From positions 1-64,000 of the forward strand of contig NC_018208.1 in the NCBI RefSeq assembly GCF_000219625.1: a stretch of 64,000 nucleotides of DNA, written 5' to 3'. Shown piece after piece: positions 2,304-44,959 of this stretch (its first letter is position 1; the number at the start of each line of letters is the position of its first letter). The translations under genes were made by a program, and so were the position numbers. The stretch is from Zymoseptoria tritici IPO323. Lineage: Eukaryota; Ascomycota; Dothideomycetes; Mycosphaerellales; Mycosphaerellaceae. A model generated the notes under the pieces. The model was not told the DNA's origin. It made no database searches and saw only the letters and a program-made list of their open reading frames with translations.

Positions 2304-3124
2304 GCGAGGTAGAGCAAAACCGGTGGCTAGGATGGGGTAATCGACCCGCGCGATTCCAACGCCGTCGTCCGTTTGTCGATCCGGCCATTGCCCGTAGAGA
2401 TATCGCCGCCAACACCCTCAGGCCAACACCTACCCGGTTTTCGAAGGCGTTGGTCAGGGTCGCCCCGGGGACGATATTTGAGACGGCGAGGTAGAGCAAA
2501 ACCGGTGGCTAGGATAGGGTAATCGACCCGCGCGATTCCAACGCCGTCGTCCGTTTGTCGATCCGGCCATTGCCCGTAGAGATATCGCCGCCAACACCCT
2601 CGGGCCAACACCTACCCGGTTTTCGAAGGCGTTGGTCAGGGTCGCCCCGGGGACGATATTTGAGACGGCGAGGTAGAGCAAAACCGGTGGCTAGGATGGG
2701 GTAATCGACCCGCGCGATTCCAACGCCGTCGTCCGTTTGTCGATCCGGCCATTGCCCGTAGAGATATCGCCGCCAACACCCTCGGGCCAACACCTACCCG
2801 GTTTTCGAAGGCGTTGGTTAGGGTCGCCTCGGGGACGATATTTGAGACGGCGAGGTAGAGCAAAACCGGTGGCTAGGATGGGGTAATCGACCCGCGCGAT
2901 TCCAACGCCGTCGTCCGTTTGTCGATCCGGCCATTGCCCGTAGAGATATCGCCGCCAACACCCTCGGGCCAACACCTACCTGGTTTTCGCGGAGGCGTTG
3001 GTCAGGGTCGCCCCGGGGACGATATTTGAGACGGCGAGGTAGAGCAAAACCGGTGGCTAGGATGGGGTAATCGACCCGCGCGATTCCAACGCCGTCGTCC
3101 GTTTGTCCATCCGGCCATTGCCCG
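2304..3124. repeat. 182-bp tandem satellite, 4.5 copies
   Basis: Unit starts lie at 2304, 2486, 2668, 2850 and 3034, giving a period of 182 bp (184 in the fourth unit, which has a 2-bp insertion). The last copy is cut about half-way at 3124. Copies are nearly identical, GC-rich, and rich in CA/TG, so the array shows no RIP although it sits between RIP-damaged elements. The period is not a multiple of three, so the repeated minus-strand ORFs inside it are frame artefacts. It begins just after the copia LTR. Confidence 0.95.
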
Positions 3125-3815
3125 GGCCCTTACCTTTACCGGATACTGGATACGACTACTAGATACTAGATACGACTACTGGATACCTGTTTATCTATCG
3201 TACGATATAAAACTACGACACCGCGCTCGCGGTGTGCTGGACTCGACCCTCTTCCTTCGACAAAAGATAAGAATCTCGCAAAAGATTTAATTCTTCCCCC
3301 TCTTGAACTTGTGGTAAACCGTATCGACGCGGTGCCTTTGCACTTGGAAGTCTGCGACTTCCCGATCGGGTGAAACCTACAAGTTCAAGAGGAGCATTAC
3401 AGAATAGAGGACCTACATGTCGCAATAGCGCATGTAGTGACATATAGAGCACAACCCTGCTGGCATATAGGGTCAGCCGAACTGCTTCTGTGCGCGCCCT
3501 GAATAGCCAGCCGTTAGGCCACTGTGTCTGTCAGCCGCTTCGTTATCGGCCTGGACGTGTCGACTAGTGGGTTGCATGAGGCGTCTTAAGAACGTGTAAA
3601 TCTGAGCACATGCAGATTCCTGAAAAATATATACCCAACAATTTCCCGGAGGTCAAATAGCTGAGTGGAATGGACCCTTTACCTCCGGCTTTTTATAAGC
3701 TGTAGAGCATAAGATTAGCAGGTTGGGAGGTGACGGAGCTGGATTTCCAGGAATAGGGTGGAATTTTGAGGCGGATTTAATGGTTACACCGGTTTTGCGA
3801 TTGGGGGTGGTAATT
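3125..3815. other. Non-coding spacer with short repeats and a large inverted repeat
   Basis: No convincing gene. About two copies of a 20-bp GATACGACTACT-type repeat lie at 3145-3190. A 14-bp perfect inverted repeat, CCTCTTGAACTTGT at about 3299 and its complement at about 3379, encloses a second hairpin (GGAAGT/ACTTCC) and the palindrome CCCGATCGGG. Composition is less RIP-like than on either side. Confidence 0.5.
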
Positions 3816-27286: not shown

Positions 27287-28111
27287 GGCCGGCGACGAGG
27301 AACACCTGTACGCGGTGCCGGCTACGAACCTGCGATACTATCGCAGAGCCAAGTTTCCTCCGGAGGATTGGAGAGGCCGTCGATCCCTCTTCCCTTACAA
27401 CAACAACCGACCTAGAGGCACACCTCCCCTCGAAGATACAAGCTACAACAGAAAGACAGTACGATTCGAACGAATAGCTCTCTACGCTACGAACGAGAAG
27501 AAGAAGAAGAAGAAGAGGCAGTCTACTCTGTCCTATACGCGCATCTCCTCGAAATCCGAACCGAACCGCACCTCTTTCCTCGTAGAGATTCGGGTCCTCT
27601 ATACGACGGATAAGGGCACTTTAAAGAGCTAGAGTACGGTAGAACTACAACTCGGCGATTAACCTACGTAGTTGTATGCGCTAGAAGGCGGCATACAATT
27701 CTACAAAGGCATATTAAGGACAAGAGAAAGAGACAGCGGGTTGGATAGCTGCTTGCGTAGCTGCTTACGCAGCTACGTCGCTCCTGCACTGCTTTCTGCA
27801 CTGCAATGTATTTCCTCTCTCTTTCGAATTCGCAGCGTGCGTGCGAAGCGGAAGGATCCGCTAAAAATTCTGCAAAAAGCTTGGCGCGAAAATTCTATAG
27901 CCCCGGCTACACGACACTCGTTGGATTTCCTTTGTTTTGCGCTGCTTTTAAAGTCCTTTAGCATTTTGCCTTAGGCACGGGGTTTCCCCTAAGGTCAAAG
28001 AATACCGAAAGAATTTGATTATAAATAGATCTACTGCCTTGCTTACAAGGCCGTCCTACATAGTCTTGGACTCCGAAAGGACGTAAATGGAACAAACAAA
28101 CAAACAAACAA
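27287..28111 (+). mobile_element. SINE-like non-LTR element, copy 1 (825 bp)
   Basis: Ends in GTAAATGG(AACA)n and is flanked by a 14-bp target duplication TTTAGTCTACTAGC (27273-27286 and 28112-28125). Its 5' end (GGCCGGCGACGAGGAACACC) and inner blocks match the two minus-strand copies at 32.6 and 37.6 kb, so it is full length. No long ORF. It keeps many CA/TG dinucleotides while the host transposon has almost none. Its last 150 bp resemble the 3' end of the LINE at 43749. No clear pol III A and B boxes were found. Confidence 0.85.
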
Positions 28112-28398
28112 TTTAGTCTACTAGCTAGCTACTATTCTATAGAGCTGTTACTATTTATATACTAGTCTAAAGGACTCTTAGCGGTTATAAAGCGTAACTT
28201 CTTCCGGTTATTCTAGCTAGTATAGTAGAAGGCCTTTATACTAGCAAACATCGCTTCTAGCTTCCGTAAAACTAGCCTCTATCTACTAGATTTATTAGTC
28301 GTAGTATAGAAATTCGTAGACTCTTAGAGTAAGGGTAAGAGTAAGGATAAGGCTAGGGATAAGAATGTTTACTTTAGCGATAGCTTAAGGCTAGGTAC

Positions 28399-28653
28399 TA
28401 TTGTAGGGCAAATAGTGCTAAACATAGTTTACGGTATAGCGTAGTTTTAGGTCTTAGCGATGTATAGTAGTCGGATTCTTCCTTTTTTTAAGGATCTAAT
28501 AATAACATTACCGGTCGTCGGTAGCACTTAATGCACTTTATAGCTACTACTCGTTTCTTAATATAATTCTACGCTCGATACCGCGCCCTTAAGGTACTTA
28601 TATACTTACCTCTTAGTACCTTAGGTTAGTAGTAGTCGATTCTACCTACTACA
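28399..28653 (+). repeat. Gypsy 5' LTR
   Basis: 255 bp, begins TATTGTAGGGCAAATAG (TG changed to TA by RIP) and ends ACCTACTACA. It matches 42537-42790. Confidence 0.93.
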
Positions 28654-28849
28654 TTTTCTAGTAGACGATGTAAGACTCTTTACGGCTCCTTTATATAAAG
28701 GAAAGGGCATACTCGGTAAGTACATAAGTCGTCTATATTATATATAATAGTTATAGGAAAACTCGGATCTACGGACGTACCCCTTAAGGACTCGGATATA
28801 TAGTACTAAGAAAGACACGCGGCATATAGAAGCTTTACTCGTACCGAAG

Positions 28850-29480
28850 ACGGTAGTCGTATACTCGTTCGTACTATAGGCTATTAATAGGGCGAAGTAG
28901 AAGCACTTAAATTAAGGAAACCTAAGCGTATACCGAATCTATAGTATAGCTTATATAAGGTTACTAGAAATATAGCACATTTAAGAACACTAGGCGCATA
29001 GTTACTCGTATTATAGCTTATTTAAGGCTTAAGGAAACCTAAACGTACACCCGCTCGTAGTATAGTTTATATAAGGCTTATAGTTTACCTCTGCTCTAAA
29101 GACGGCGTATATATACCCGCTCGTACTATAGTACGCTAATATAGAGTACGAGGTAATCTCTTAATGTTTAAGGTTACGGTTACTAAACGTATAGTCGCTC
29201 GAATTATAGTTTATTTAAAGTTAAGGCTTAAGGACACCTCTAATTTAAAGACGGTGTACGTATACCCGCTCGTACTATAGTACATTACTATAAATTGTAA
29301 GGTATAGACGGACGTATACTCGTACGTAGTATAGTCTACTCGAGATTAAGGAATTAAGGAAACCTAAATACGAACCGAATCTATAGCACGGTTTATATAT
29401 TGTTACTATTACTAGAAAACCTAAATTTACGTCTACTCGTAGCGTAGTTTATATACGGCTTAAGAATTATAGGAATTACG
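28850..29480 (+). repeat. Degenerate tandem repeats in the gypsy leader
   Basis: About eight diverged copies, spaced 50-90 bp apart, of a block like GTATACCCGCTCGTACTATA followed by GTTTATATAAGG. Clear members lie at about 28857, 28930, 29000, 29050, 29110, 29190, 29262, 29318 and 29420. They lie between the LTR and gag, where packaging or expression signals would be expected; the role is unknown. Confidence 0.6.
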
Positions 29481-32400
29481 GATTAATAGTATACCTCGAA
29501 GATACGAAGAAACTAGATAAAATCTAACTAGAACTACTAGATACCTAGAGCGTAGGTATACTAAAAACCCTAAAAACTAGATGCCTCGCGATCGATACAA
29601 TACTTCTTCTCTAAGGAATCGGCGACTATAATCGTCGATTCCTATATTCCTCCGATACTTTCCGGCGATCGCTTATCGCTATACATTTTGCTAGTAAGAT
29701 TACTACTCGATCTATAATACCTCGTTTACTATTAAGGATCGAGTAGTCTAAGGGCCTAACTTAGTAAGGATATCGCTATTTAGAGCCGGCTCTTAATATT
29801 ACGGTTTATAGATTACCCTCCGAGTAGGGAACGTACCGACTATATTAAAGAATCTTATAGAACCGAGCATTCGTACTTAAGTACCTCCTTATATATACCC
29901 GACATTTCGAGGAATTATCGCCTTCTATACTAATTAGTTAACGATACCTTAGCTCCCTTATTTCGTAGTTTATACCCCCCTCTTATTTTAAACCTTACCG
30001 ACACTAATCGCTATGTCTTTAGGTAATACTAGCGACCCTACTAAGGCTACGGCTTCTTCTACTACTCGTACTAAAACTAGCCCTTCCTTAAGTAAGGATA
30101 ACTCGGAGTCTTCTTAAGGTACTAATCCGACTATACCTAGCTAAGACGGCCTAGATTCGACTAAGCTTACTAAAGGGATTAGCCCTAACTAGGTTATACG
30201 TAAACCGAAGGGCGACGTTATACTCTCGGACTCTACTAATAGGCTAGAGGTTACCTTCGAGAGTAGTAATATAGCCGACTATATACGTAAGCCTATAGCT
30301 GCCGGAAGACGTAACACCGTAGTACTATTCGTTCGTCTTACCCCTTTAATACTAATGCCCGGAAGTACCGACGCTCCCCTCTTTAACGGTGCCGATATAA
30401 CTACCTTCTTCGAGAATGTCGAAGACCTCTTTAAGGACTACTACGACCTATCTAAACTGCCGGATCGTAAGAAGATCCGTAAGACTATTAAGTACTATGT
30501 CCCTACGCTACGTTCGTAGTTTAAGTTATTCGACGCCTTTACTAATAGCGACTAGTCTACGTTTAAGATAGAGGCGCTTCTTACTTAGCGCTAGTTTAAC
30601 TCTACGGCTAGAACTAAGGACCGGTCGTTTCTCGAATAGCTAGTAGCTCGACAATCTAGTCGTTACGAGACTACTAGTAGCGAGGAGCTTCTTATATTCT
30701 ATAGACACTTTAAAGCGATTGCCGGATGTCTATAACTAAACTAGCTCGATAATGTCTCTCGTATAAAGATGTTCTTTAAGGGACTTCTAGCCCGAGTTTC
30801 TCGCTCTATTTATAGTCGCCTCGGTATTAACCTCCGTAATCCTACTACGTATACTAACTTTAGCACTATCTATAAGGCGGTTTTTACTAAGATTAAGGGT
30901 AAAGCTAGATTTAAGGAACTTAGCGGCGATGTAGAAGATAGCGTTGCGGCTAGTCTTATTAGGGCACAAGAAATGTAGAAGCCGGTACCTATAGTAGAGC
31001 GTAGCTCTTATTCCCTATTTAGTCTGTAGCGGCAACAAGAGTATAAACCGAGTGCCGCGATTAATAAACTTAATCGACGTATACGGGATCTTAAGATCTT
31101 TCGATCTTAGACTTAGTCTACATAGTAACCTTAAGTGCCCGTAAATCCTCCGATTAACGTACCTGCTTACCGCGCCCCTATAGAAGACCTTAGTTTCTAG
31201 AGTTATGTATATGCGAACGCCGGTTTACTACCCCCTTAGCTTAGCCCTCCGGCACCCCGTCGCAACAGCATAGGAAGTGCTAGCGCGAATAGGTATAGAA
31301 GTAGTAGAGCCGGAACTAACTATAACGAGCTTATGCGCTAAGGTCGCTGCCTTAACTATAGAATGCCTAGTTATGTAGCCTATAACTACTATTTTATAAA
31401 CTTCCTTCTTAACTAGGGTTAGGCGCACTAAGATGCTGCCTACTACTAGTATGCTAGAAAACCCGGTAATCCGAATAAGAGACTACTACAGTTCCGAGGG
31501 ATTAATTAGTAGCCGAGACTCTAGCTAATACTACCGAAGCTAGAAGACGTGTACAATATAAGGATTCCTTAGCTAGTATCCTTTAACTTCCCTACTATAG
31601 AGAGATCTTAGAGCTCTCGTAATATAAGCTAGATTAGCGGTCCGATTACTAGTACTCGTAAACTCGGCAGCCTATTAGAACACTTAAGTATAGTCGCCCT
31701 TCTAAGCTAGATCCGGATGCGGTTTCTTTAGCACCCCCGGTGCCCGCGCCTACGACTAGCTCTAATATAACCCCGGTTAGTAGCCGCTAAGGATAGACTT
31801 CGAGCTCCTACTTTAATAACATCCTCTATATTAAAGAAGATAGGTGCCCTATTCTAGTGCCGGTTTATAATACCGAGGTTCCGGTAAATGCCGCGGTAGT
31901 TCCTAAGAAGGCGAATCTAGTAGTCGGTAGTATCTTAAAACTATATAATAAAAACTACCGCGTACTAAAAGAGCGAGTTACCGTAGACTAGTCTACGGCT
32001 AAGATTAAGACCCTAAAGTCTTATACCGTAGATATAGTTCGTTCTTAGTCTATACTACCTACTAATAGCTAAACGATCTAAGGAACGAACTCGCTATTAT
32101 CTGTTCGCTTCTTAGAACCGCCGGTAGAATCTATTAAGCGAGATTCTTAGCGCTAACTAGCTACTAAAGACTATATAGAAGACGTAGACTCGGATGCCGA
32201 AGTTAGGCTAGTAAACCCTCTAAAGGAGCTAGCTAAGAAGAGAAGGACCCCTCCTAAAACTTAGCGAGTAGATAACTATATCCGCGATAGGTTAGATAGT
32301 AACGAAGTGCTAGTTAAGCGGATATAGAAGGCTCCGGTATCCCTTCTATTTAGCGAGCTTCTTAGACTCTCTAAGTTAATATCGTAGAAGCTCTTCGGTC

Positions 32401-32597
32401 GTATACAAAATACTCCGGTATTTATAGATAAGCTAAGAGGCGGGCCGGTAGGTCTACTACTATCCGATAACGTAGTAAAGCTAAACTCCGTTTAAGGGGA
32501 TAATAAGGTCGAAGAGATACTAAGGGATAGCTTTACCGTAGAAGTCCGCTCCGGTATATCGCAATTTATAACGATAGCGTTTCGAGCCGACCTTATA

Positions 32598-33496
32598 TTG
32601 TTTGTTTGTTTGTTTGTTTGTTTGTTCCATTTACGTCCTTTCGGAGTCCAAGACTATGTAGGACGGCCTTGCCCTAAGGGCAAGGCAGTAGATCTAGTTA
32701 CAATCAGATTTTTCGGTATTCTTTGACCTTAGGGGAGACCCCGTGCCTAAGGCAATTGCCTTGCCAAAGGACTTTAAACAAATGCGAGACAAAGGAAATC
32801 AAACGAGTGTTGCAGCCCAAGGCTGCAGAATTTTCGCGCCAAGCTTTTTGCAGAATTTTCAGCGGATCCTTCCGCTTCGCACGCACGCACGCTGCGAATT
32901 CGAAAGAGAGAGGAAATGCATTGCAGTGCAAAAAGCAGTGCAGGAGCGACGTAGCTGCGCAAGCACAAGCAGCTCAAGCAGCTACGCAAGCAGCTATCCA
33001 ACCCGCTGTCTCTTTCTCTTGTCCTCAATATGCCTTTGTGGTATCGTAGTAGCAGTTCTATCTACGACAACGCAGGTTGATCGTAGAGTTGTGGATTCCA
33101 CCGAGTTCCAGCTCTTTAAAGTGCATGTATGCTTCCTTTCGAGGGCGACGACGTCTCTAGGGACATGCGATTTCGGTTCGGATTTCGAGGAGATGCGCGT
33201 ATAGGACAGAGTGGACTGCCTCTTCTTCTTCTTCTCGTTCTCGTTCGTAGCGTAGAGGGCTATTCGTTCGAATCGTGCTGTTGTTCTGTTGTAGCTCGTG
33301 TTTCGAGGCGGATTTCGAGAAGGATTTCGGGCGGATTCGAGAGGTTTTTGTGCTCGTGTTTCGAGGCGGATTTCGAGAAGGATTTCGGGCGGATTTCGAG
33401 AGGTTTTCGAGGAGGTTTCTTCCAGACTGTCTTGGTTTCCCTTCCGAGGAAGGTACTTACGACGGCCACCGCGTGAAGGTGCAGTCTGTTCGGCCG
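32598..33496 (-). mobile_element. SINE-like non-LTR element, copy 2 (899 bp)
   Basis: Minus orientation: the tail (GTTT)n on the + strand starts the element and CGGCCGAACAGACTGCACC on the minus strand is its 5' end. A perfect 16-bp target duplication TCGAGCCGACCTTATA flanks it (32582-32597 and 33497-33512). Removing element plus one duplication restores the gypsy pol frame. It contains a short GGCGGATTTCGAGAAGGATT-type direct repeat at 33300-33400. CA/TG-rich and little affected by RIP. Confidence 0.9.
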
Positions 33497-36400
33497 TCGA
33501 GCCGACCTTATAGAAGAGGGTATAATACCTCTTTCCGACCTATACGAAGACCTAGCTAAAGCCCGGTTTATATTTAACGACTACGATTATATAACTATAC
33601 CGTCGCTAAGAGTCTCGGCTATAATCGGCGATTTCGATTATAGAGAGCCTACCGCGGTAATTAATAAGGGCTCCGAGTCTTATATTATGTCTACCGCGGT
33701 AGCTCGCCGTACCGGCGTCCCGATCGGTATAGGAATTAAAGTCTTAATAAAGACGGCTTCTAGTATTCTACCTTTCCTTAGCCTATCTACTAGTATATAG
33801 GTATCGGTTTACGGTATTACGGTTTACGTTCCCTTCTTAGTTATAGACTCGGATATACCGACTCTTCTTAGGCGACCGTAGTATCGTCGGGTCCGCCTAA
33901 CTTTAACTAACTACGATAATAGATCTTAGTAGAGTACGATTACGGCTATAAACGGTCGTACGATTAATTTTATTAGAGTTTAACTATATAGTCTAACGTA
34001 CCGAGTCCTTATACCTACTAGCGCTTCGGGAAAAGCCGAGTTAAGCCGCTAACTACCTCCTCGCTACTTAGTAGTCTATTAGAGGTCCTACTTCGAGCGA
34101 TCTAGTACGTATTTCCGGAAGAGTTAAGTATAAAACGGACTTCGAGTCGAGAATCTGTATTTAGTAGACGAGGTCGAAATAAGGCAGGCTGTCCCGAAAG
34201 TTCGGCCGCTCCCGAAAATCTTAGCGCCCCGGGTTACCCCTAGGGTTAGGCCGGGGAAACTTCGGAAGAAAACTTAGCGAATTTACTTATCCCCGAAACT
34301 AGCTAATATCGCGATATTTAATCTTACCTTATATCGATACTAAGCCCTAGCTCCCTTCTATTCGAACTTAATAGTATCGATAATAAATATAATAAGCTAC
34401 TCGAGCTCGCGGCTACCGCTTACTACCTCCGCTACTACGAAGAAAGAAAGAGATCGCTATACGGGGGGAGGAATTTATAGTTTTCCGAATTTTCCGTTAA
34501 CTACTATATACTATATAAGAGGAAAGCGGACAAAGTTAAGCTAGTAGAAGCTTTAGTTTATAATACGAAGAGCGTTACTAATAAGGTAGGGAATTAGAAA
34601 GAAGCTAGCCTTAAGCTCGAAGCATCTTTACCGCGGTCGGATCGCTAGTAGGATAACAAATACCTAATTTAGAAGTTCTCCGAGCTTAAGAAGGGGACGA
34701 GATTAACACCGGAAAGAATTAAGACACTAAACATTAAGATAGAGCTATTTAATAAGGAGCGTAAGCTTTTTATAGAATGCCTATATAATAGGGAGGCTAT
34801 ACTTTCCTTCGATTTCTCTAAATACGGCCGCCTTAAACCCTTAGTCGTACCGCTATAACGAATACGAACTATACCTTATGTTCCCTAGTAATTAAAGGAC
34901 TTCTATGTTACTTATAGCCTTCGAGATATAGTATCTAAGATAATTAAGAAGCGACTAGATCGCGGAACCCTCGAACCCTACTATAGAGTATATAAGAATC
35001 CTTAGTTCTTAGTTAGTAAGAAGGATCTTAACGAGAAAGGACAAAAGTAGTACCGGCTTATTAATGCGGCAATAGAAATTAACTAAGTTACTCTTAAAGA
35101 CGTATATATGCCCCCGGACACTAATAGATTTTCTATAGACTTTGCGGGCCTTTAAGTTATAATACTAATTAACCTTTTCTCTAACTACGACTAAATCCTA
35201 CTAGACGAACGAGACCGAGATTTAACTAGATTCGATACGCCGATCGGCTACTTCCGCTAGACTAGTATTCTAATAGGAGCTACGAACTCGGTTATATAGT
35301 TTTAGCGAATTATATACCGAGTTCTTAAGGATTATATGTTCTACGCGGCTCGACCGTATCTAGATAATATTAGTATTAAAGGCCCTCGGTCTCGGTATAA
35401 TAATAAAGAGGCTAAACCTAGCATTCGTCGATTCGTACTCGAGTATATTTAGAACCTTAACGGGGTTCTTACGGACATAGAAAGAGTAGGGCTAACTATT
35501 AATCTAAGTAAGACATTCTAGTTCTCGACTAGTATAAACATTATTAGCTACGTCTACGACTCGGCTAGTCGCTACCCGGACACCGCTAAGGTTATTAAGA
35601 TTACCGAGTAGGGACTACCTATAGATACTACCGAAGCCCGCTTATTTATTAGAGTTATAGTATATTTCCGAATCTAGATTCCGGACTTCGCTATTCTATC
35701 TCGCCCTATCTACGTAGTAGCTAAGCCGGGTAGTATCTTCGTCTAGACGCCGCTCGAACAGTATACGATAGATTAGCTTAAGGAGGCACTTATTACGGCA
35801 CCGGCCCTTATTACGATCGATTACGTTAACGGAGGGACTATAATCGTAGTAGTAGATACATCTAGTCTTAGCTAGGGGGTAGTACTAATATAGGTAGTAA
35901 AGGGCAACGACCGCCGTAAGTATCCGGTTCGATTTAAAAGTAGTTTATAGACTAAGGAAGAAGCTAAATACGATACTAGCAAACGAGAGTATCGTAGTAT
36001 ACTCTACGCTCTTAAGAAGCTTAAAGTATATATATTCGGTGTTTACTTCGTACTAGAAGTAGATACGAACACGCTAGTTTACTAGCTTAATATGCCGGCG
36101 AACGACCTTCCGACTTTAGTTACGGCTCGATAGATTACTTAGATTCGGCTCTTCGACTTTACGGTTAAGCATATACCTAGCCGAAAGTACGGTGCCGCTA
36201 ATAGCCTTTTACGGAAACCTTAGACTCCGTCCGATGCCGTAGATAAGGAACATAATATAGACCCGGATAATATAATTAACCGTAACTTCTTTTAGGTATA
36301 GGTACATGCCGGTAATATTAATATTAAGGACATTTTAGAAGGCGAGCTATCCGAGTTCTACTAGAAGATTACATACTACCTAGCTATACTTTTACGACCG

Positions 36401-37567
36401 CCCTCGGTAGATCTAACGGAGTTCTATACCCTTAAGAAGAAGTTAAGGCGGTATCTTATTCGCGATAGGATTCTGTACCGCTAAAAGCGTATTAATACGC
36501 TACTAGCTCGAGTAATCGACAATAAGGATAAGCGTAAGACTATACTTTTATACTACTATAATTTCCCGGATGCCGGTTACCGCGGTCGCGAAGTAGTATT
36601 CTATAAGCTCTCTAGTAGGTACTTCTAGAAGGGCATATATAAGGACGTATTACGATATATTAAAGGGTGCCCGTAGTATAACCTATATAGTACGGGTAAC
36701 TACGCGAATGCTCTACTATATATACCTAATCCGGAGCCTAGTACGATCTAGGCGATTAATACTATAAATGTCGACTTAACTATAAGCATTATTATAGTAA
36801 GGGAGCTAGTTAGCGGCTTCCCGGAGGCGCGCATTATAAACAAAAGTAAGCTTATTAGTACGAACGGTGTTAGCTCTACTATAATTGCTAGCTTTATATA
36901 CGAGATGCTCTTTTATAGGTATAGTATTATAAAATTAATCCGGCTTAATAGTAGCTATAAGAACTTCGGTAAGGTACTTACTCTACTCGTACAAATAGAC
37001 GTACGACTTAGTCGCGTATCGCCCTATTACCCTTAAGGAAATAGAATAGTAGAGCGAGGGCACCCGAATATACTCGATGTTCTCGCTAAGTATACGAACG
37101 GAACTATAAAAGGATAGCGCCGGTATTTCTATACCGCGCTATAGGCTAATCGATCTACTATTCGAAGAACTACCGGCTATATACCTTCTAAACTCTAGTA
37201 TTCCTTTAATATTATCCTTCCGGTAGAGCTTAAGTTTTAGACTTAGAATACTACGGCTTAGAACAACATTCGTACGGAAGAAGATCTTATCGCCCTACGT
37301 ACCGAGTAGATCCTTATAAGGGAAATAGACATTAAGGAAGCCCGCCTTCGTAGCCTACGGCTTCGAGAGCTTACTAAGGAATACTAGGATAATACCTATA
37401 ACACCGACGATATACTAATCCCTCTTAGTACTACTATTCTTATACGCCGCGGAGAAAGAAAGTTAACTACGGAAAAGCTATCGTTCCGATAGAAGGGACT
37501 ATATTATATATACTTATACCTAGAAGCTACGTCGATATATAAGATTAAGGAATTTACTAGCGCCGTT

Positions 37568-38351
37568 GTTTGTTTGTTTGTTTGTTTGTTTGTTCCATTT
37601 ACGTCCTTTCGGAGTCCAAGACTATGTAGGACGGCCTTGCCCTAGAGGCAAGGCAGTAGATCTATTTACAATCAAATTCTTTCGGTATTCTTTGACCTTA
37701 GGGGAAACCCCGTGCCTAAGGCAGGACCTGCAAGCAGAATCTGCCGAAGGACTTTAAAACAGCGCAAGACAAAGGAAATCAAACGAGTGTCGTTGTCTGC
37801 AGCCGGGGCTACAGAATTTTCGCGCTAAGCTTTTTGCAGAATTTTCAGCGGATCCTTCCGCTTCGCACGCACGCTGCAAATTCGAAATGCAGTGCAAAAG
37901 CAGTGCAAAATGCCGTGCAAAAGTAGTGCAAAATGCCGTGCAAAAGCACTGCAAAAGCAGAAGCAGCTATCTAACTCGCTGCCCCCTCTTATCCTCAATA
38001 CGCCTTTGTAGAACTGCATGCCGCTTCCAAACGCATACAGCTACGCAGGTTGATCGCAGAGTTATGGATTCTACCAACTGTTCCAGCTCTTTAAAGTGTT
38101 TCGGTTCGGATTTCGAGGAGGTGCGCGTATAGGATAGAGTAGACTGCTTCTTCTCGTTCGTAACGTAGAGGGCTGTTCGTTCGAATCGTGCCGTTGTTCT
38201 GTAGCTTGTATTTCGAGGCGGATTTCGAGAAGGATTTCGGGCGGATTTCAAGAGGTTTTCGAGGAGGTTTCTTCCAGACTGTCTTGGTTTCCCTTCCGAG
38301 GAAGGTACTTACGACGGCCACCGCGTGAAGGTGCAGTCTGTTCGGCCGTCG
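37568..38351 (-). mobile_element. SINE-like non-LTR element, copy 3 (784 bp)
   Basis: Minus orientation with the same two ends as copy 2. A perfect 13-bp target duplication TACTAGCGCCGTT flanks it (37555-37567 and 38352-38364). It holds an internal minisatellite of GTGCAAAA-type units (37887-37960), not expanded to this extent in the other copies. CA/TG content is high against the RIP-stripped host. Confidence 0.9.
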
Positions 38352-38976
38352 TACTAGCGCCGTTCTTACTACGACCTTTCCGCGCCGAATGCTCCGCCCT
38401 ATACCTAAGTAGGATTCTATACGCGTATTACTACTAGAAGTCGGATCTACTATACCTCTAGAGGACGAGCTTAAAGAAGGGCATAATCTAAGCGACGAAG
38501 ACGATAGTCTACTACCGTCCCTATAGGTACGACTACCTAACCTAGCCTTACTAGACGTATCGTAGTACGAGCGCTTCGTATAATAGCCTTTAGGGGGGGG
38601 GAAGAGTACGCGGCGTTATTTACTCGACCTCGTTATTTATATCTATACTAAGTACACTAACATAGATCGCCTAAAGTAGTAAAGTAAGCTCTTTTCGCCT
38701 ATAACATCGCCGTCCCTACCGCTAATTATCGCTACTAGAATACTACTATTAATTATAAGGCGTAGTAAGGAAGAAGAGGAGAAAGAATAGTAAGTAGTAA
38801 AGCTTTTTAGGGGCTTAGCTACGCTTCCGGAATAATTATAAGCGGCTTCTAATAATTAGAAACAATTTACCTCTAATAGAAGGTTTATAAACATCTAGAA
38901 TTTACTAACAACTATCGCTACGACTAGTATTATTATATCGCGGCTACTACCGCCGTCCCCGCTACCCCGTCCCGGT

Positions 38977-39004
38977 ATTACCCCGGGCTACCCCCGGGGG
39001 TAAT
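38977..39004. repeat. GC-rich palindrome
   Basis: ATTACCCCGGG, a CTA spacer and CCCCCGGGGGTAAT form a near-perfect inverted repeat in the gap between pol and the accessory ORF of the gypsy element. Confidence 0.6.
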
Positions 39005-39289
39005 CGAGGGAAAATAGCCGTATTAAGGTAGTAACTAGTACTAGCTCGACTATCTAGAAATAGCGAACTATTAAACTAACTACGCTCTTTAATATGCGTA
39101 CTAAAGTGTAACTACTCGCACTTAACATCGATACTTATAGTAGGTATATATTAACTACTACTTTCCGCCTTAATCGGGAGTAGCCGGCTAGCCTTATTTT
39201 CTCCTACCGGTAGTTCTTATATATTTTCTCGAGTTACTTTTTACGACTACAACCCCCTTATTAATATCCTCGTTTACTACCCCCCTTTA

Positions 39290-42200
39290 TAACCGGCCTC
39301 GATAGCTAACTCGACTTTATAGGCGCTCGCGCTTATACTATAAGGCGTACTACTTACCCCTATCTAATATAACGGTAACACCTTTAGTAGCATTAATAAA
39401 ATTCGTACCTACGTAGTAAACTTCGATAAGGAAGAAGTACTCTAGTTCTACGTAGACATAGCTAAGAAGCTTAAGGCTTTCGGCGTAGCTATAAAGATAA
39501 CTACTAACAATATACGTATACTATTCGATAAGGAGCTAGCGGTCTACTACCTAGTCGAGGTTAATCGCTTTAATCTACTCGATAGTAAAGTTAAGAACTA
39601 CTCCGCTAATCTTTAAGTTTCTCGCGACTCGGCAAAGCGTAACGACTAGTATCGCCGTACGTTAAGTATAAACCTTTAAATCGAGGATGCCCCGAGTATA
39701 GTCGTATATCTATACTTTATAATTAACAAAGTGCGCTCTAACGACTTTAATAAGTACATAAGCGCACTTATTAACTCCTCGAAGAAAGTAGAGTAAATAA
39801 TTAACGCGCTTATACGTACTATAATTACTAACATTAGTAAGACCCGTACTACCTATACGACCGAAATTACCGTTAGCGATGTTAAGCTAGTAGTTTAGAA
39901 TGTTAAGAACGATCCGGACACTACTATGCGCGTAATTACGCGCTCGGAATTAGAAGAATTAGAAAAGGCTATTAATAACCGTAGTAATAAGATAAAGGCG
40001 AACCTACTCTTCTACTCTTAATACTATATTAATATATAAGGCGCGCTTATTAGATTCTACCCTACTACCGCCCTTACTATCGACTACCCTAAGAGCCCGG
40101 TTAATAGCCCTAAGCCTACTCGCACTTTATTACCTAACCGCGGCCGTACGCGCTCTAGCGCTAAATTTACGAATAAGTTCGATACTAGCGCGGTACGATA
40201 AGTTAAGGAAGACGAGCTCTTAGCCGAGGCCCTCTAAGATATCGATAACTAAGAAGCGCGTCCTCTTAGTAAGGATACGGCGAGTACTCGGCCGAGTATA
40301 CGGCTACGCGTAGGTACCCGTACTACTACTACTACGCTTATAGCTACGCGCGGCGACAACGCTAAGGAAGATAATGCGGATAATACTAGTAATAACGACT
40401 TTAAGGATAAGCTAGGTCGTCGCAACCGCGGTATTAAGACTACGGCTATAAAGGCTAGAATTAAGGATAACTATATATACTTCCGCCCGAATGTATCCGT
40501 AACTACTAACCTTTCGGATAGTACTGTTCGGAAAGCCGCCTTAAAGGCGGTTATCGAGAAAATTAAGAAGCTTACTCGCCTTAAGGACAAGGCTACAATT
40601 ACCGTAGCTACTCGTACTAAAGTTAATATAGTTATAGCTCTTACTACTACCTACCTAAGCGACGGTTACTACATCTACTTCGTATATTAGTATTAGCTTC
40701 TTAGAAAGGCTAGATATTACGTTAACGTACTTAGCTACGACACCGTTATATAGCGCATTATCGACTACGCGAACAACACCGGTAATCGCATTACGGCTTT
40801 CTTATTAACTAATAAAGCCTACGCTAATATTAAGAAGTTTGCTCGGTCCCCTTATCCCCGCGACTCCTACCTTATATACCGTAAGATCCCTAACAAATTA
40901 GTGTTCGAGGTTTATATAATAAACGACGATTTCTCTATAGCCGCTAAAGCTATACTACCCGGAGTCTACGATTAGTTCTAGCTAGACGGTACGATCGCTA
41001 TTAACATCTTCGGCTAGTAGAAGAACTTCGACCTTCTATATATCTTTAAGAGCGAGTTTAAGATGTATTACTATTATTTCCTTATACCTCCCGGCACTAA
41101 CGACATTAGCTAGTTGCGCAACTACTTCTACTCGCTAATATAGTAGAGTATGCGCTAAGACCTAATGTACTACGTATTATACTACCTTCTTCGACTAGAT
41201 AAGGTAATAAACCTCTACTTATACCCGTACTACGCTAAGCTTACGCTTCCGGGGGCGTTTACTACTTTTAAGCATATAGATTATAACCCTATCGATATGC
41301 TCGAGGGTAATAAGTTAATAGTAATAATAATTTAAGGTTTAGTTTCCCTTACCGATAAAGATAAGGAGAACTATACCCTAATTATCCCCGGTATATACCT
41401 ATACTAGAAGAAGTAGTATGCTAATATAGAGGAGCGTACGTAGGTACTTATCGACTCTAAAGTCGCTAAGGGTATAGATAAGGAGGCTACTACGAAGGAT
41501 GCTCGCTTTAAGCTTAGTCTACGTAATACGATAGTTCTAATAATTACCGATAAGATAATTACTACGGAGGATCTTCGGGAATTTAAGACTAACTAGTACC
41601 TTTAGCTAGTTAAGGTAGGTATTGCTCGCATCTCTTATCTACTACTTCCGTATAGATCTACCGGACTAGTAACTAAGCTACGTATAACTACTCTACTATA
41701 GTTTATCGCCGGTAAGCCCGGTAGTACTATCGAGAATGCCTTAGCTAGTACCGTCGCCGAGCTTACCTACTCCTACTCCGTACGTATGCCTAGCTTTAAG
41801 ACTCCGTCTAGTAAGCCTAATAACTACGGTACACCGACTACGCCCTTCCCTACCTCGGTAGTTATCCGTACGTAGAGTGCTCTATCTAACGCTGTTCTCG
41901 GTACTACTACCTACCTCGATGCCGGTACTAAGGCTAACTAAGATGCCCTCTTCTCTAAGTCTAAATTCTACCGTAAGGAGTACGTTACTAAGACTCGCGC
42001 TATATTAGTCGCTCGCGTCTTCCTTACTATAGCCGACTACGTCCGTCCGTAAGAGTAAGAAGCCTTTAGATTTAATAATAGCTACTTCGGCGGTAGTAAG
42101 TACGAGAAGGTAAGCGCGAGCGATACAGAGCGTACCGAGCGTATAGCCGTACTAGCTAAGAATAAGAGTAAGCTATAGGTTAAGGAAATAGCCTAGGAAA

Positions 42201-42484
42201 TTAACGACCGTAATAATAGTAAGGGTTTAAAGGTAACTATTAATACTAAGGGCAATATAGTCGAGGAGAGTAAGGCTCGCAACCCCTCGGCTAAGACTAA
42301 TACTAAGGATCTGCCTGTTTTTAGCACCTCCGGTCGCGTTGCCGACGGATACGTACCGACTATAGAGTAGGTTTACCAGTAATACCTATAGTTCGGTAGT
42401 AAGGAAGAGGACTAGCTCGCTAAGAACTAGCTTAATAAGCTAGATCTTCGTAACGACGACATTAAGGAACTTAGTCGCTATTAA
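39290..42484 (+). pseudogene. Accessory ORF of the gypsy element; possible 2-oxoglutarate/Fe(II) dioxygenase
   Basis: One frame reads through about 1,060 codons to the TAA at 42482-42484, with no frameshift; all stops are TAG/TAA. The start is uncertain. It lies after pol and before the PPT, in sense orientation. The N-terminal half is Lys/Asn/Thr-rich with basic low-complexity stretches (about 40100-40450). The second half is globular. It contains FKHIDYN (His codon 41273, Asp 41279: an HxD pair) and, 41 codons on, IIPGIYLY, where the Tyr codon at 41396 is what RIP makes of His. HxD...H with this spacing is the metal site of 2OG/Fe(II) dioxygenases. Similar PxxFxxFxHID...LxPGxH proteins exist in fungi as far as I recall, but the assignment is tentative. 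Confidence 0.55.
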
Positions 42485-42536
42485 GTAGTACTTGTTGTGT
42501 CTATAGCATAGATATATAATAAGTAGGGGAGGAAAA

Positions 42537-42790
42537 TGTTGTAGGGCAAATAGTACTAAATATAGTTTACGGTATAGCGTAGCTTTAGGTCTTAGCGATA
42601 TATAGTAGTCGGATTCTTCCTTTTTTAAGGATCTAACAACAACATTACCGGTCGTCGGTAGCACTTAATGCACTTTATAGCTACTACTTATTTCTTAATA
42701 TAATTCTACGCTCGATACCGCGCCCTTAAGGTACTTATATACTTACCTCTTAGTGCCTTAGGTTAGTAGTAGTCGATTCTACCTACTATA
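42537..42790 (+). repeat. Gypsy 3' LTR
   Basis: 254 bp, starts TGTTGTAGGGCAAATAG after a purine tract and ends ACCTACTATA, followed by GTAC. Confidence 0.93.
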
Positions 42791-42794
42791 GTAC

Positions 42795-43647: not shown

Positions 43648-43748
43648 CTTATCTTAGTAGGATAGGTTATTAATCGAATTAAATTAAGTTACTATTATTA
43701 TTACTTTCGGTAACTTAAAGGGTTATAACTTCCTTCTTATAGTCCCTT

Positions 43749-44943
43749 GTTTGTTTGTTTGTTTGTTTGTTTGTTCCATTTACGTCCTATAGGAGTCTAT
43801 GACTATGTAGGACGGCTGTCTCGCGACAGCAGTCTATCTATGTACAATCGTTGTTCTCTCGTATCTCTTAACCTTAGGGAAAGACCCGTGCCTAGGATAG
43901 TAGCAAGCTAGTATCGAAGGACTTTAAAGAAAGACAAATAAGGAAAAGTAAAAGGAGTGTAGGCTAGACGGTCTCGTCTTCGCCTCTTGCTAGGTGCTAG
44001 GACCTAGAAGCAATCTTTGTATCCGAGAGAAAGGTAGTAAGGTGTTTCCGGAGTTCCTTATCTTCTACTATTTCTAGTAGAGATTATGCTTATCGTAGCG
44101 GTAGTAGCCTAAATACATCGTAGATAGGGCAGCTATATACGAGGTGTTCTGCTGTTTCTCGTCGTCCGCAAGGGTAGTCTAGCGTCGTTACGTGTCCAAA
44201 GCGATAGAGATAGGACTTTAGGTATCCGTGTCCTAATAGGATAGTATAGAAGGTACTAGTTAAAGCGCGTCTTCCTCCTATTCTATGTTTTCCTAGCGAG
44301 CTCTATAGAAATCGACTAAGGTAGCTATTTGTATTCCTAGGTACCTTATTAATCTCCCGTTGTCTTACTATTTCGTATCGGGTTTTCCAGACGCTAAAGA
44401 GATCGTCTTTTGCGTAGTTAGCCCTCTCGTATTCTACGAAATGCTTGTATTGTCGGAGTCGATAATAGAGTAGTTGTATCTATGTTCTCTGTCGTTTTTG
44501 CGGAAGTATCTCTCTCGAGTCCTCGTGTCGGACTTCTCGCGTATCCGAAGGCGCGCTTTAGATAGCGAGTCTTATAGGGTAGTTTTCGGGTAGCTTTGCT
44601 ACGCGTAGAGAGTATAAAATTAACTGTCTCTCTAGGCGTAGATCCGGGGGGAAGAGATTTGACTCTACTTCGGATAGGACGTTTAGGGCGGTACGGAAAA
44701 CGCCTAGGATCTTTCTACAAGCTTTACTTTGTAGAGATACTAGAGGTTTTATACTCTTTTTCGACCGCCACCAAACCGGGGCCCCGTAGTCTGCTATTGT
44801 AGTAACGCAGGCTAGGTAGATCTTTCTTAACGATATAGAAGATAGACCGCGTTCGGTATTTGCTAGTCTTTCTAATCGATAGAATGCCGCTTGTGCTTGT
44901 GCCGATCTTATTGCAATGTGCTCCTTAAAGGTAAGACCGGCGT
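43749..44943 (-). mobile_element. 5'-truncated LINE (Tad-like), C-terminal RT fragment
   Basis: Minus orientation with a (GTTT)n tail at the + strand start and a perfect 16-bp target duplication CTTCTTATAGTCCCTT (43733-43748 and 44944-44959). The minus-strand reading from 44940 downward has the end of a LINE reverse transcriptase: IYLACVTTIADYGAPVWW, then LQSKACRKILGVF. A Cys/His cluster, YPCGRRETAEHLVYSCP, follows near 44150. 5' truncation at about 1.2 kb is typical of target-primed reverse transcription. RIP damage is light. Its 3' end (TTCCATTTACGTCCT on the + strand and beyond) is shared with the SINE-like copies. Confidence 0.88.
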
Positions 44944-44959
44944 CTTCTTATAGTCCCTT

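Follow-up and report, generated by a model that had tools for sequence, protein, structure and literature searches.

We analysed a stretch of 64,000 bases from Zymoseptoria tritici IPO323 (contig NC_018208.1, positions 1 to 64,000; hereafter the window), in which a gypsy (Ty3/Metaviridae-type) retrotransposon with long terminal repeats (LTRs) spans positions 28399-42790 and carries, after pol, a third open reading frame (ORF3) whose predicted product resembles 2-oxoglutarate (2OG)/Fe(II) oxygenases of the PhyH/DUF1479 kind. The LTRs, direct repeats 14,138 bases apart, were located by repeat finding and alignment. The 5′ LTR (28399-28653, plus strand) starts with TATTGTAGGG and ends with CTACTACA, and the 3′ LTR (42537-42790, plus strand) starts with TGTTGTAGGG and ends with CTACTATA; they are 254-255 bases long, with one TG end and one CA end altered to TA. 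The 4-base target duplication GTAC flanks the element on the left (28395-28398) and on the right (42791-42794). These LTRs and GTAC flanks had been named in an initial annotation of this DNA, and the alignment confirmed them.

Paired TG...CA LTRs, a short target duplication and the order reverse transcriptase - RNase H - integrase place the element in Ty3/Gypsy. When pol (34538-37551, plus strand) was scanned with X at its 45 in-frame stops, Pfam matched RT_RNaseH (E 2.3e-11), RT_RNaseH_2 (2.8e-11) and the zinc-binding part of integrase (Integrase_H2C2, 5.2e-7), and the reverse transcriptase match (RVT_1, 2e-4) was below its cut-off. The ranges on the translation (P0037) follow the gypsy order, with RVT_1, below cut-off, at residues 206-336, RNase H at 407-520 and integrase H2C2 at 662-716; the integrase core (rve) was matched by Pfam neither in P0037 nor in the pol protein of a second element family (P0039). 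Upstream lie a probable gag frame (29998-31560, plus strand), which is broken by TAG and TAA only, and a probable protease region of pol (33507-34304, plus strand). Neither has a Pfam match, and both were named from their translations by position, the latter also by its likeness, judged by eye, to the same stretch of the second family. Downstream, the initial annotation had placed the third frame between pol and the end of the element. ORF3 does lie after pol, but with an insertion of 784 bases (37568-38351) and a further 1 kb or so (38352-39316) in between; of the latter, only the first part, as judged by eye, may still be pol. Another insertion occupies 32599-33497. A purine-rich stretch ahead of the 3′ LTR (42523-42536, plus strand) is probably the polypurine tract.

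ORF3 as a third gene in two gypsy families

The frame that was annotated at 39290-42484 on the plus strand exists between pol and the polypurine tract and LTR. Its length of about 1,060 codons holds for the frame, but a start codon for ORF3 cannot be placed; similarity to relatives starts near 39,317, and ORF3 is given here as 39317-42484 (plus strand). It contains 43 internal stops (27 TAG and 16 TAA, 39317-42481), the fewest of the six frames, the other five of which hold 52-170. That TAG and TAA alone break the frame is true as first described, but we rejected the lack of TGA as evidence for the frame: TGA is absent from every frame on both strands, as would be expected if repeat-induced point mutation (RIP) removes TG. 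When ORF3 was compared with 11 other copies, transversions, which were used since they are not RIP changes, fell at 13 distinct sites in the first, 11 in the second and 40 in the third codon position (P 5e-6 by chi-square, a guide only, as the copies are related), and there were 0-2 gap columns per copy across 2,964-3,165 sites. The protein is also conserved with the second element family and with proteins elsewhere. These comparisons indicate that the ORF3 frame was selected as a protein before RIP.

A DNA search with the 3,195-base frame gave 24 genome matches including the window, 14 of which cover at least 2,000 bases; the 13 other long copies (family 1) are 90-96% identical to that of the window. 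Searching the same genome with the ORF3 protein, X standing at its stops, gave 45 rows (44 of 66 first-look candidates scored), 17 of them distant (30-46% identity) and confined to residues 406-700. Two of the distant loci, both on contig C7, are separate gypsy elements (family 2) with LTRs of 274 bases that are 99.3% and 97.1% identical and with target duplications ATAT and CTCT; the first is about 13.7 kb long. In the one family 2 element scanned (P0039), Pfam matched reverse transcriptase, with RVT_1 above its cut-off, RNase H and integrase H2C2 in the same order, and a 900-residue ORF with the same core lies between integrase and the 3′ LTR. The two families share 44% identity in pol over 941 residues and 23-24% in ORF3 over the full-length alignment.

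ORF3 is followed by its element's LTR in 13 of 13 other family 1 copies (one LTR being split) and in 4 of 4 family 2 copies examined; in 4 of those 13 family 1 copies, the short stretch 5′ of ORF3 shows pol sequence. Thus, as had been claimed, the frame belongs to the element: ORF3 is a third gene of a gypsy element, in sense orientation between pol and the 3′ LTR. With an intact relative as query (50 of 62 first-look candidates scored), 60 genome rows were found, all with in-frame stops; 21 are at family 1 places, and the four loci examined among the other 39 are all family 2. In-frame stops are present in all listed element copies of ORF3. At one place (G000:C2:3255474-3262000), a family 2 ORF3 (3255474-3256877) lies about 2 kb from a family 1 ORF3 (3258836-3262000), and the two families may be nested there.

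Relatives, fold and active site of the ORF3 protein

Relatives were reached with the less mutated family 2 as query, not with window ORF3, which with X at its stops had no match among 7,989 scored candidates of the protein collection. The family 2 query matched 29 proteins with E values no worse than 1.3e-34, and a further protein, P0034, at E 0.02. A profile from six of the proteins so found gave 140 matches at E <= 0.001, and the 120 of these that were listed, together with those from the family 2 search, make up a set of 130 relatives. The named sources are Penicillium, Aspergillus, Coccidioides, Rhinocladiella, Chaetothyriales, Onygenales, Venustampulla, Coleophoma, Xylona, Xylographa, Vezdaea and Bathelium, which we take to be filamentous ascomycetes; a single moss record is probably a contaminant. 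Most relatives are unnamed or "hypothetical", and one is named PhyH (P0012). Scans of IMG/VR and of bacterial and archaeal genomes, which were aimed at a relative with its surroundings, yielded none.

In a tree of 251 core columns and 132 tips, the two families lie far apart and their common ancestor covers all tips under midpoint rooting, a root that is arbitrary in a tree where the window family is RIPped. The tree suggests that the gypsy ORF3s bracket the whole group of relatives, and therefore much of the group may be retroelement-borne. Because two families with 44% identical pol carry ORF3s so far apart, ORF3 looks like an old resident of the element lineage rather than a recent capture. 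The enzyme that had been described as captured is thus element-borne, but apparently of long standing.

A 2OG/Fe(II) oxygenase core had been proposed from FKHIDYN and, 41 codons later, PGIY, the Tyr of which was taken as the second iron His altered by RIP. Both motifs are present at this spacing. The core corresponds to about residues 540-870 of the translation (P0035; 40934-41926, plus strand), and the alignment of relatives sets the HxD iron motif (H653 and D655) at 41273-41281 and the Arg expected to bind 2OG at 41681-41683 (both plus strand). In the alignment, the Tyr codon of PGIY (41396-41398, plus strand) falls at the last position of a PGxH site, where 93 of the 130 relatives have His and 31 have Gln. 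The distal iron His is instead found in an LPHG motif, at a codon (41651-41653, plus strand) that reads Tyr (LPY) in the window copy. Conservation was counted over relatives with a letter at the position, excluding P0033, which stops short of the distal His, and the distant P0034. The Asp of HxD is invariant (129 of 129), as is the Arg ten positions after the LPHG His (128 of 128), and His is retained at the HxD site in 127 of 129 relatives and at the LPHG site in 125 of 128. The full set of four residues occurs in 122 of 127; each of the other five relatives has Tyr in place of a His, two at the first His and three at the distal one. In a structure model of one relative (P0006), the HxD His is at a strand end, the LPHG His is on a strand and the Arg starts the next strand, and the PGxH His is at a helix start. 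Such an order of His/Asp, distal His and Arg on strands is that of a 2OG oxygenase. The alignment and the model thus place the distal iron ligand at codon 41651 and not at PGIY. The window copy keeps H, D and R and has Tyr for the distal His. Of the 13 other family 1 copies, all retain the Asp and the Arg, three the HxD His and two the distal His.

Three features precede the core of the ORF3 protein: helices in the N-terminal region, a stretch of disorder and a conserved CxC...CxxH motif. In relatives, about 500 residues lie before the core. The four motif residues are kept in 106 of 106, 103 of 105, 109 of 109 and 109 of 110 relatives with letters there, and the motif could bind zinc. From the Arg strand onward (P0006 about 739-800), the relatives also share a strongly conserved block, RRT.LPWF...W..L..AHRDL...TPSGL..RYG.IPYAFPAAV.

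The modelled fold is the double-stranded beta-helix of the 2OG/Fe(II) oxygenase superfamily, and its nearest matches are DUF1479, GIG2, EctD, GriE and PHYH proteins. DUF1479 is closest by fold, though no Pfam DUF1479 (PF07350) match was obtained at E <= 0.01 in 28 relatives. Of 20 relatives scanned one at a time, 7 passed the curated cut-off of PhyH (PF05721, 22 bits), four of them having been chosen for their label; with the cut-off disregarded, PhyH was matched at E <= 0.01 in 8 of the 28 and was the sole Pfam family matched there. At the same threshold, none of the 28 matched AlkB (PF13532) or a TET/JBP family. No TET, JBP or AlkB entry appeared by title among the 50 fold-match rows shown, which we do not count as proof. 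The relatives' profile matched only two low-complexity partners in the PDB, and window ORF3, with X at its stops, matched nothing there. Of the searches that had been called for, those of Pfam and of the PDB with the sequence of window ORF3 itself gave nothing above cut-off; some relatives match PhyH, and the model folds like DUF1479/PhyH proteins. By profile (PhyH in some relatives), fold and conserved motif, the predicted ORF3 product is of the 2OG/Fe(II) oxygenase type, in agreement with the initial annotation. The kinship with TET/JBP enzymes that it had suggested is not supported, the best matches being of the DUF1479 and PhyH types.

Point mutation and probably later insertions

RIP is strong in the element. 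The ratio (CA+TG)/(AC+GT) is 0.15 in ORF3 and 0.17 in pol; the outermost 18 kb and 17 kb of the window give 0.97 and 1.18, respectively. Aligned with each other, the two LTRs differ by 10 substitutions, all transitions, and one 1-base indel, with no transversions; since this divergence is of the RIP kind, no date can be taken from the LTRs, and LTR-based dating was rejected.

The two insertions, recognised by repeats and RIP ratio, are not element genes. The one at 32599-33497 (899 bases, minus strand) has an AAC-type tail and a 15-base target duplication, CGAGCCGACCTTATA, and the one at 37568-38351 (784 bases, minus strand) is of the same kind, with the 13-base target duplication TACTAGCGCCGTT. 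Their RIP ratios are 1.05 and 1.10, and they probably arrived after RIP, because they are not RIPped themselves. They represent an AAC-tailed repeat of 0.7-0.9 kb that resembles a short interspersed nuclear element or the 3′ end of a long interspersed nuclear element (LINE). Further copies lie in the window at 27428-28111 (opposite orientation) and 43748-43960; the copies are 73-76% alike, and the repeat also has matches at the loci of other gypsy copies (L002, L006, L008, L013 and L049). Its tail sequence also lies near a longer minus-strand stretch (43748-44947) in which an ORF (44558-44947) resembles, by eye, the C-terminal end of a reverse transcriptase of LINE type. This LINE-like stretch may be an autonomous element to which the short repeat is the partner.

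Possible role and comparison with known systems

We consider it highly probable, and in part shown, that ORF3 is a gypsy third gene for a protein with a 2OG/Fe(II) oxygenase fold that is old in the lineage. The presence of the same extra gene in a second related element suggests that the enzyme serves the life cycle of the elements themselves. In a live element, the ORF3 protein would be translated from its own ORF, and the putative enzyme would bind Fe(II) and 2OG and oxidise a macromolecule. Its partner may be nucleic acid or chromatin, to judge by the Cys/His motif and the additional domains; together with the disordered stretch, the helical domain and this motif also make a macromolecule likelier than a metabolite. 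The most likely outcome would be that host silencing of the element is blunted, or that the element's own RNA, cDNA or proteins are modified. Taken jointly, an element-borne oxygenase gene and an anti-silencing mechanism make up a reading that we regard as reasonably probable. The anti-silencing role by itself is put forward tentatively and may well prove wrong. It is favoured by analogy with the TET/JBP transposons (PMC12730594) and the orchid gypsy AlkB (PMC9289625), as passages of these papers describe them. More doubtful is the wider proposal of an old gypsy lineage across filamentous ascomycetes whose PhyH/DUF1479-like third-gene oxygenase would remove or block a host silencing mark, most of the 140 fungal proteins, the majority of them unnamed, then being retroelement proteins that form one counter-defence family.

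Several points weigh against this interpretation. The elements were RIPped nonetheless, and the enzyme gave no protection from RIP. PhyH enzymes act mostly on small molecules, and we know of no substrate for DUF1479, both of which speak against DNA or RNA as the substrate. Window ORF3, with X at its stops, had no Pfam match above cut-off, the only match being DUF7863 at E 0.0045, under its cut-off; likewise, neither PhyH nor any other Pfam family was matched above cut-off on three other element copies scanned, and a precomputed PhyH label is present in only 5 of the 120 relatives listed. Aligned by hhalign with two host PhyH proteins, the relatives' profile gave no meaningful alignment. The window structure model was built with intact relatives as its alignment and is not independent of them. 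Judged by their residues, no family 1 copy can be assumed to be active. Finally, in P0034, which aligns over its length, both iron-site His residues and the Arg have been lost, as though a catalytically dead form existed.

Among the alternatives, it is unlikely that ORF3 encodes a metabolic, small-molecule oxygenase of PhyH type that benefits the host and for which the carrier elements are tolerated or kept. Several of the nearest folds named above act on small molecules; against this, no stop-free copy was found among the 60 genome rows (at the 50 of 62 candidates scored), and the roughly 500 residues before the core and the CxC...CxxH motif of the relatives are unlike single-domain enzymes. 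We think it quite improbable that the protein is a structural or cofactor product, env- or accessory-like, in which an oxygenase fold is kept with no need for catalysis. In plant LTR elements, env-like genes occupy this slot, in sense after pol and ahead of the 3′ LTR, according to passages of a review (PMC7264820), P0034 is without the iron site, and Tyr replaces the first His in two relatives and the distal His in three; however, the four catalytic residues are kept in 122 of 127 relatives and the Arg in 128 of 128, and all five exceptions are the change made by RIP. It is very improbable that the element captured a nucleic-acid oxygenase of TET/JBP or AlkB type from the host: such enzymes belong to the same superfamily and are carried by fungal and plant transposons (passages of PMC12730594 and PMC9289625), but PhyH is the sole Pfam family in the 28 relatives at E <= 0.01, and Kojima, in the passages available, reports that no retrotransposon bearing TET/JBP was found (PMC12730594). 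That ORF3 is a host gene with the element inserted in or beside it, or a recent one-off transduction, is hardly credible: five PhyH-family loci do exist elsewhere in the genome, four of them stop-free, but none is an ORF3 place, all listed ORF3 rows have stops, and the LTR follows ORF3 in the window copy as it does in all 13 others examined, in two families.

Extra genes that are kept by retroelements reveal what limits them in the host. If the element-borne, counter-silencing reading is true, a 2OG oxygenase in two diverged gypsy families would be a candidate counter-silencing enzyme of fungal retrotransposons, and a large group of "hypothetical proteins" would gain a name and a biochemical question, the substrate of an intact relative.

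Compared with known systems, the DUF1479 proteins (7twe; Candida albicans GIG2, 6akz; and YbiU 4rgk, 2dbi, 2dbn and 2csg, which are presumably DUF1479 proteins) have chains of about 400-450 aa, as opposed to 900-1,050 aa here, and identity is 8-15%. The PhyH family (PF05721; human PHYH 2a1x, EctD, GriE) differs in its small-molecule substrates, and its members are not known to have a long N-terminal extension or a CxC...CxxH motif. Env-like ORFs of LTR elements likewise lie in sense after pol and before the 3′ LTR, and the additional ORFs of such elements are described as env-like or unknown proteins in passages of the review (PMC7264820), in which the term "dioxygenase" does not occur and whose reference list includes an additional antisense gene of the Boty elements of Botrytis. 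The TET/JBP elements of Kojima 2025 are likewise fungal mobile elements with a 2OG/Fe(II) oxygenase gene, but they are DNA transposons and their gene is of the TET/JBP family; retrotransposons with TET/JBP are reported there as not found (passages of PMC12730594). No fungal LTR element with a PhyH-type gene was found in the open-licence literature, with Repbase outside the search, as covered by passages of PMC3248453, PMC5872316, PMC7264820, PMC13297926 and PMC5987419 and by a term search of PMC10799480 that gave no occurrence. The initial annotation, which knew of no described gypsy element with this layout, did not mention Gypsy_Pa_2799 of the orchid Phalaenopsis, a Ty3/Gypsy element with an ORF for an AlkB-type 2OG-dependent dioxygenase that demethylates N6-methyladenosine (m6A) RNA in vitro (passages of PMC9289625). 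That element is the closest precedent for the layout: like the one described here, it combines gag-pol with a separate 2OG/Fe(II) oxygenase ORF, has the domain C-terminal in that ORF and is present in many copies. As its passages state, the orchid gene is of AlkB type (PF13532) and encodes 565 aa, and the element is 25.5 kb long, was found only in Phalaenopsis in that survey and is called recent (PMC9289625), whereas the ascomycete elements are about 14 kb long and carry a PhyH/DUF1479-type gene for about 900-1,050 aa that is apparently old.
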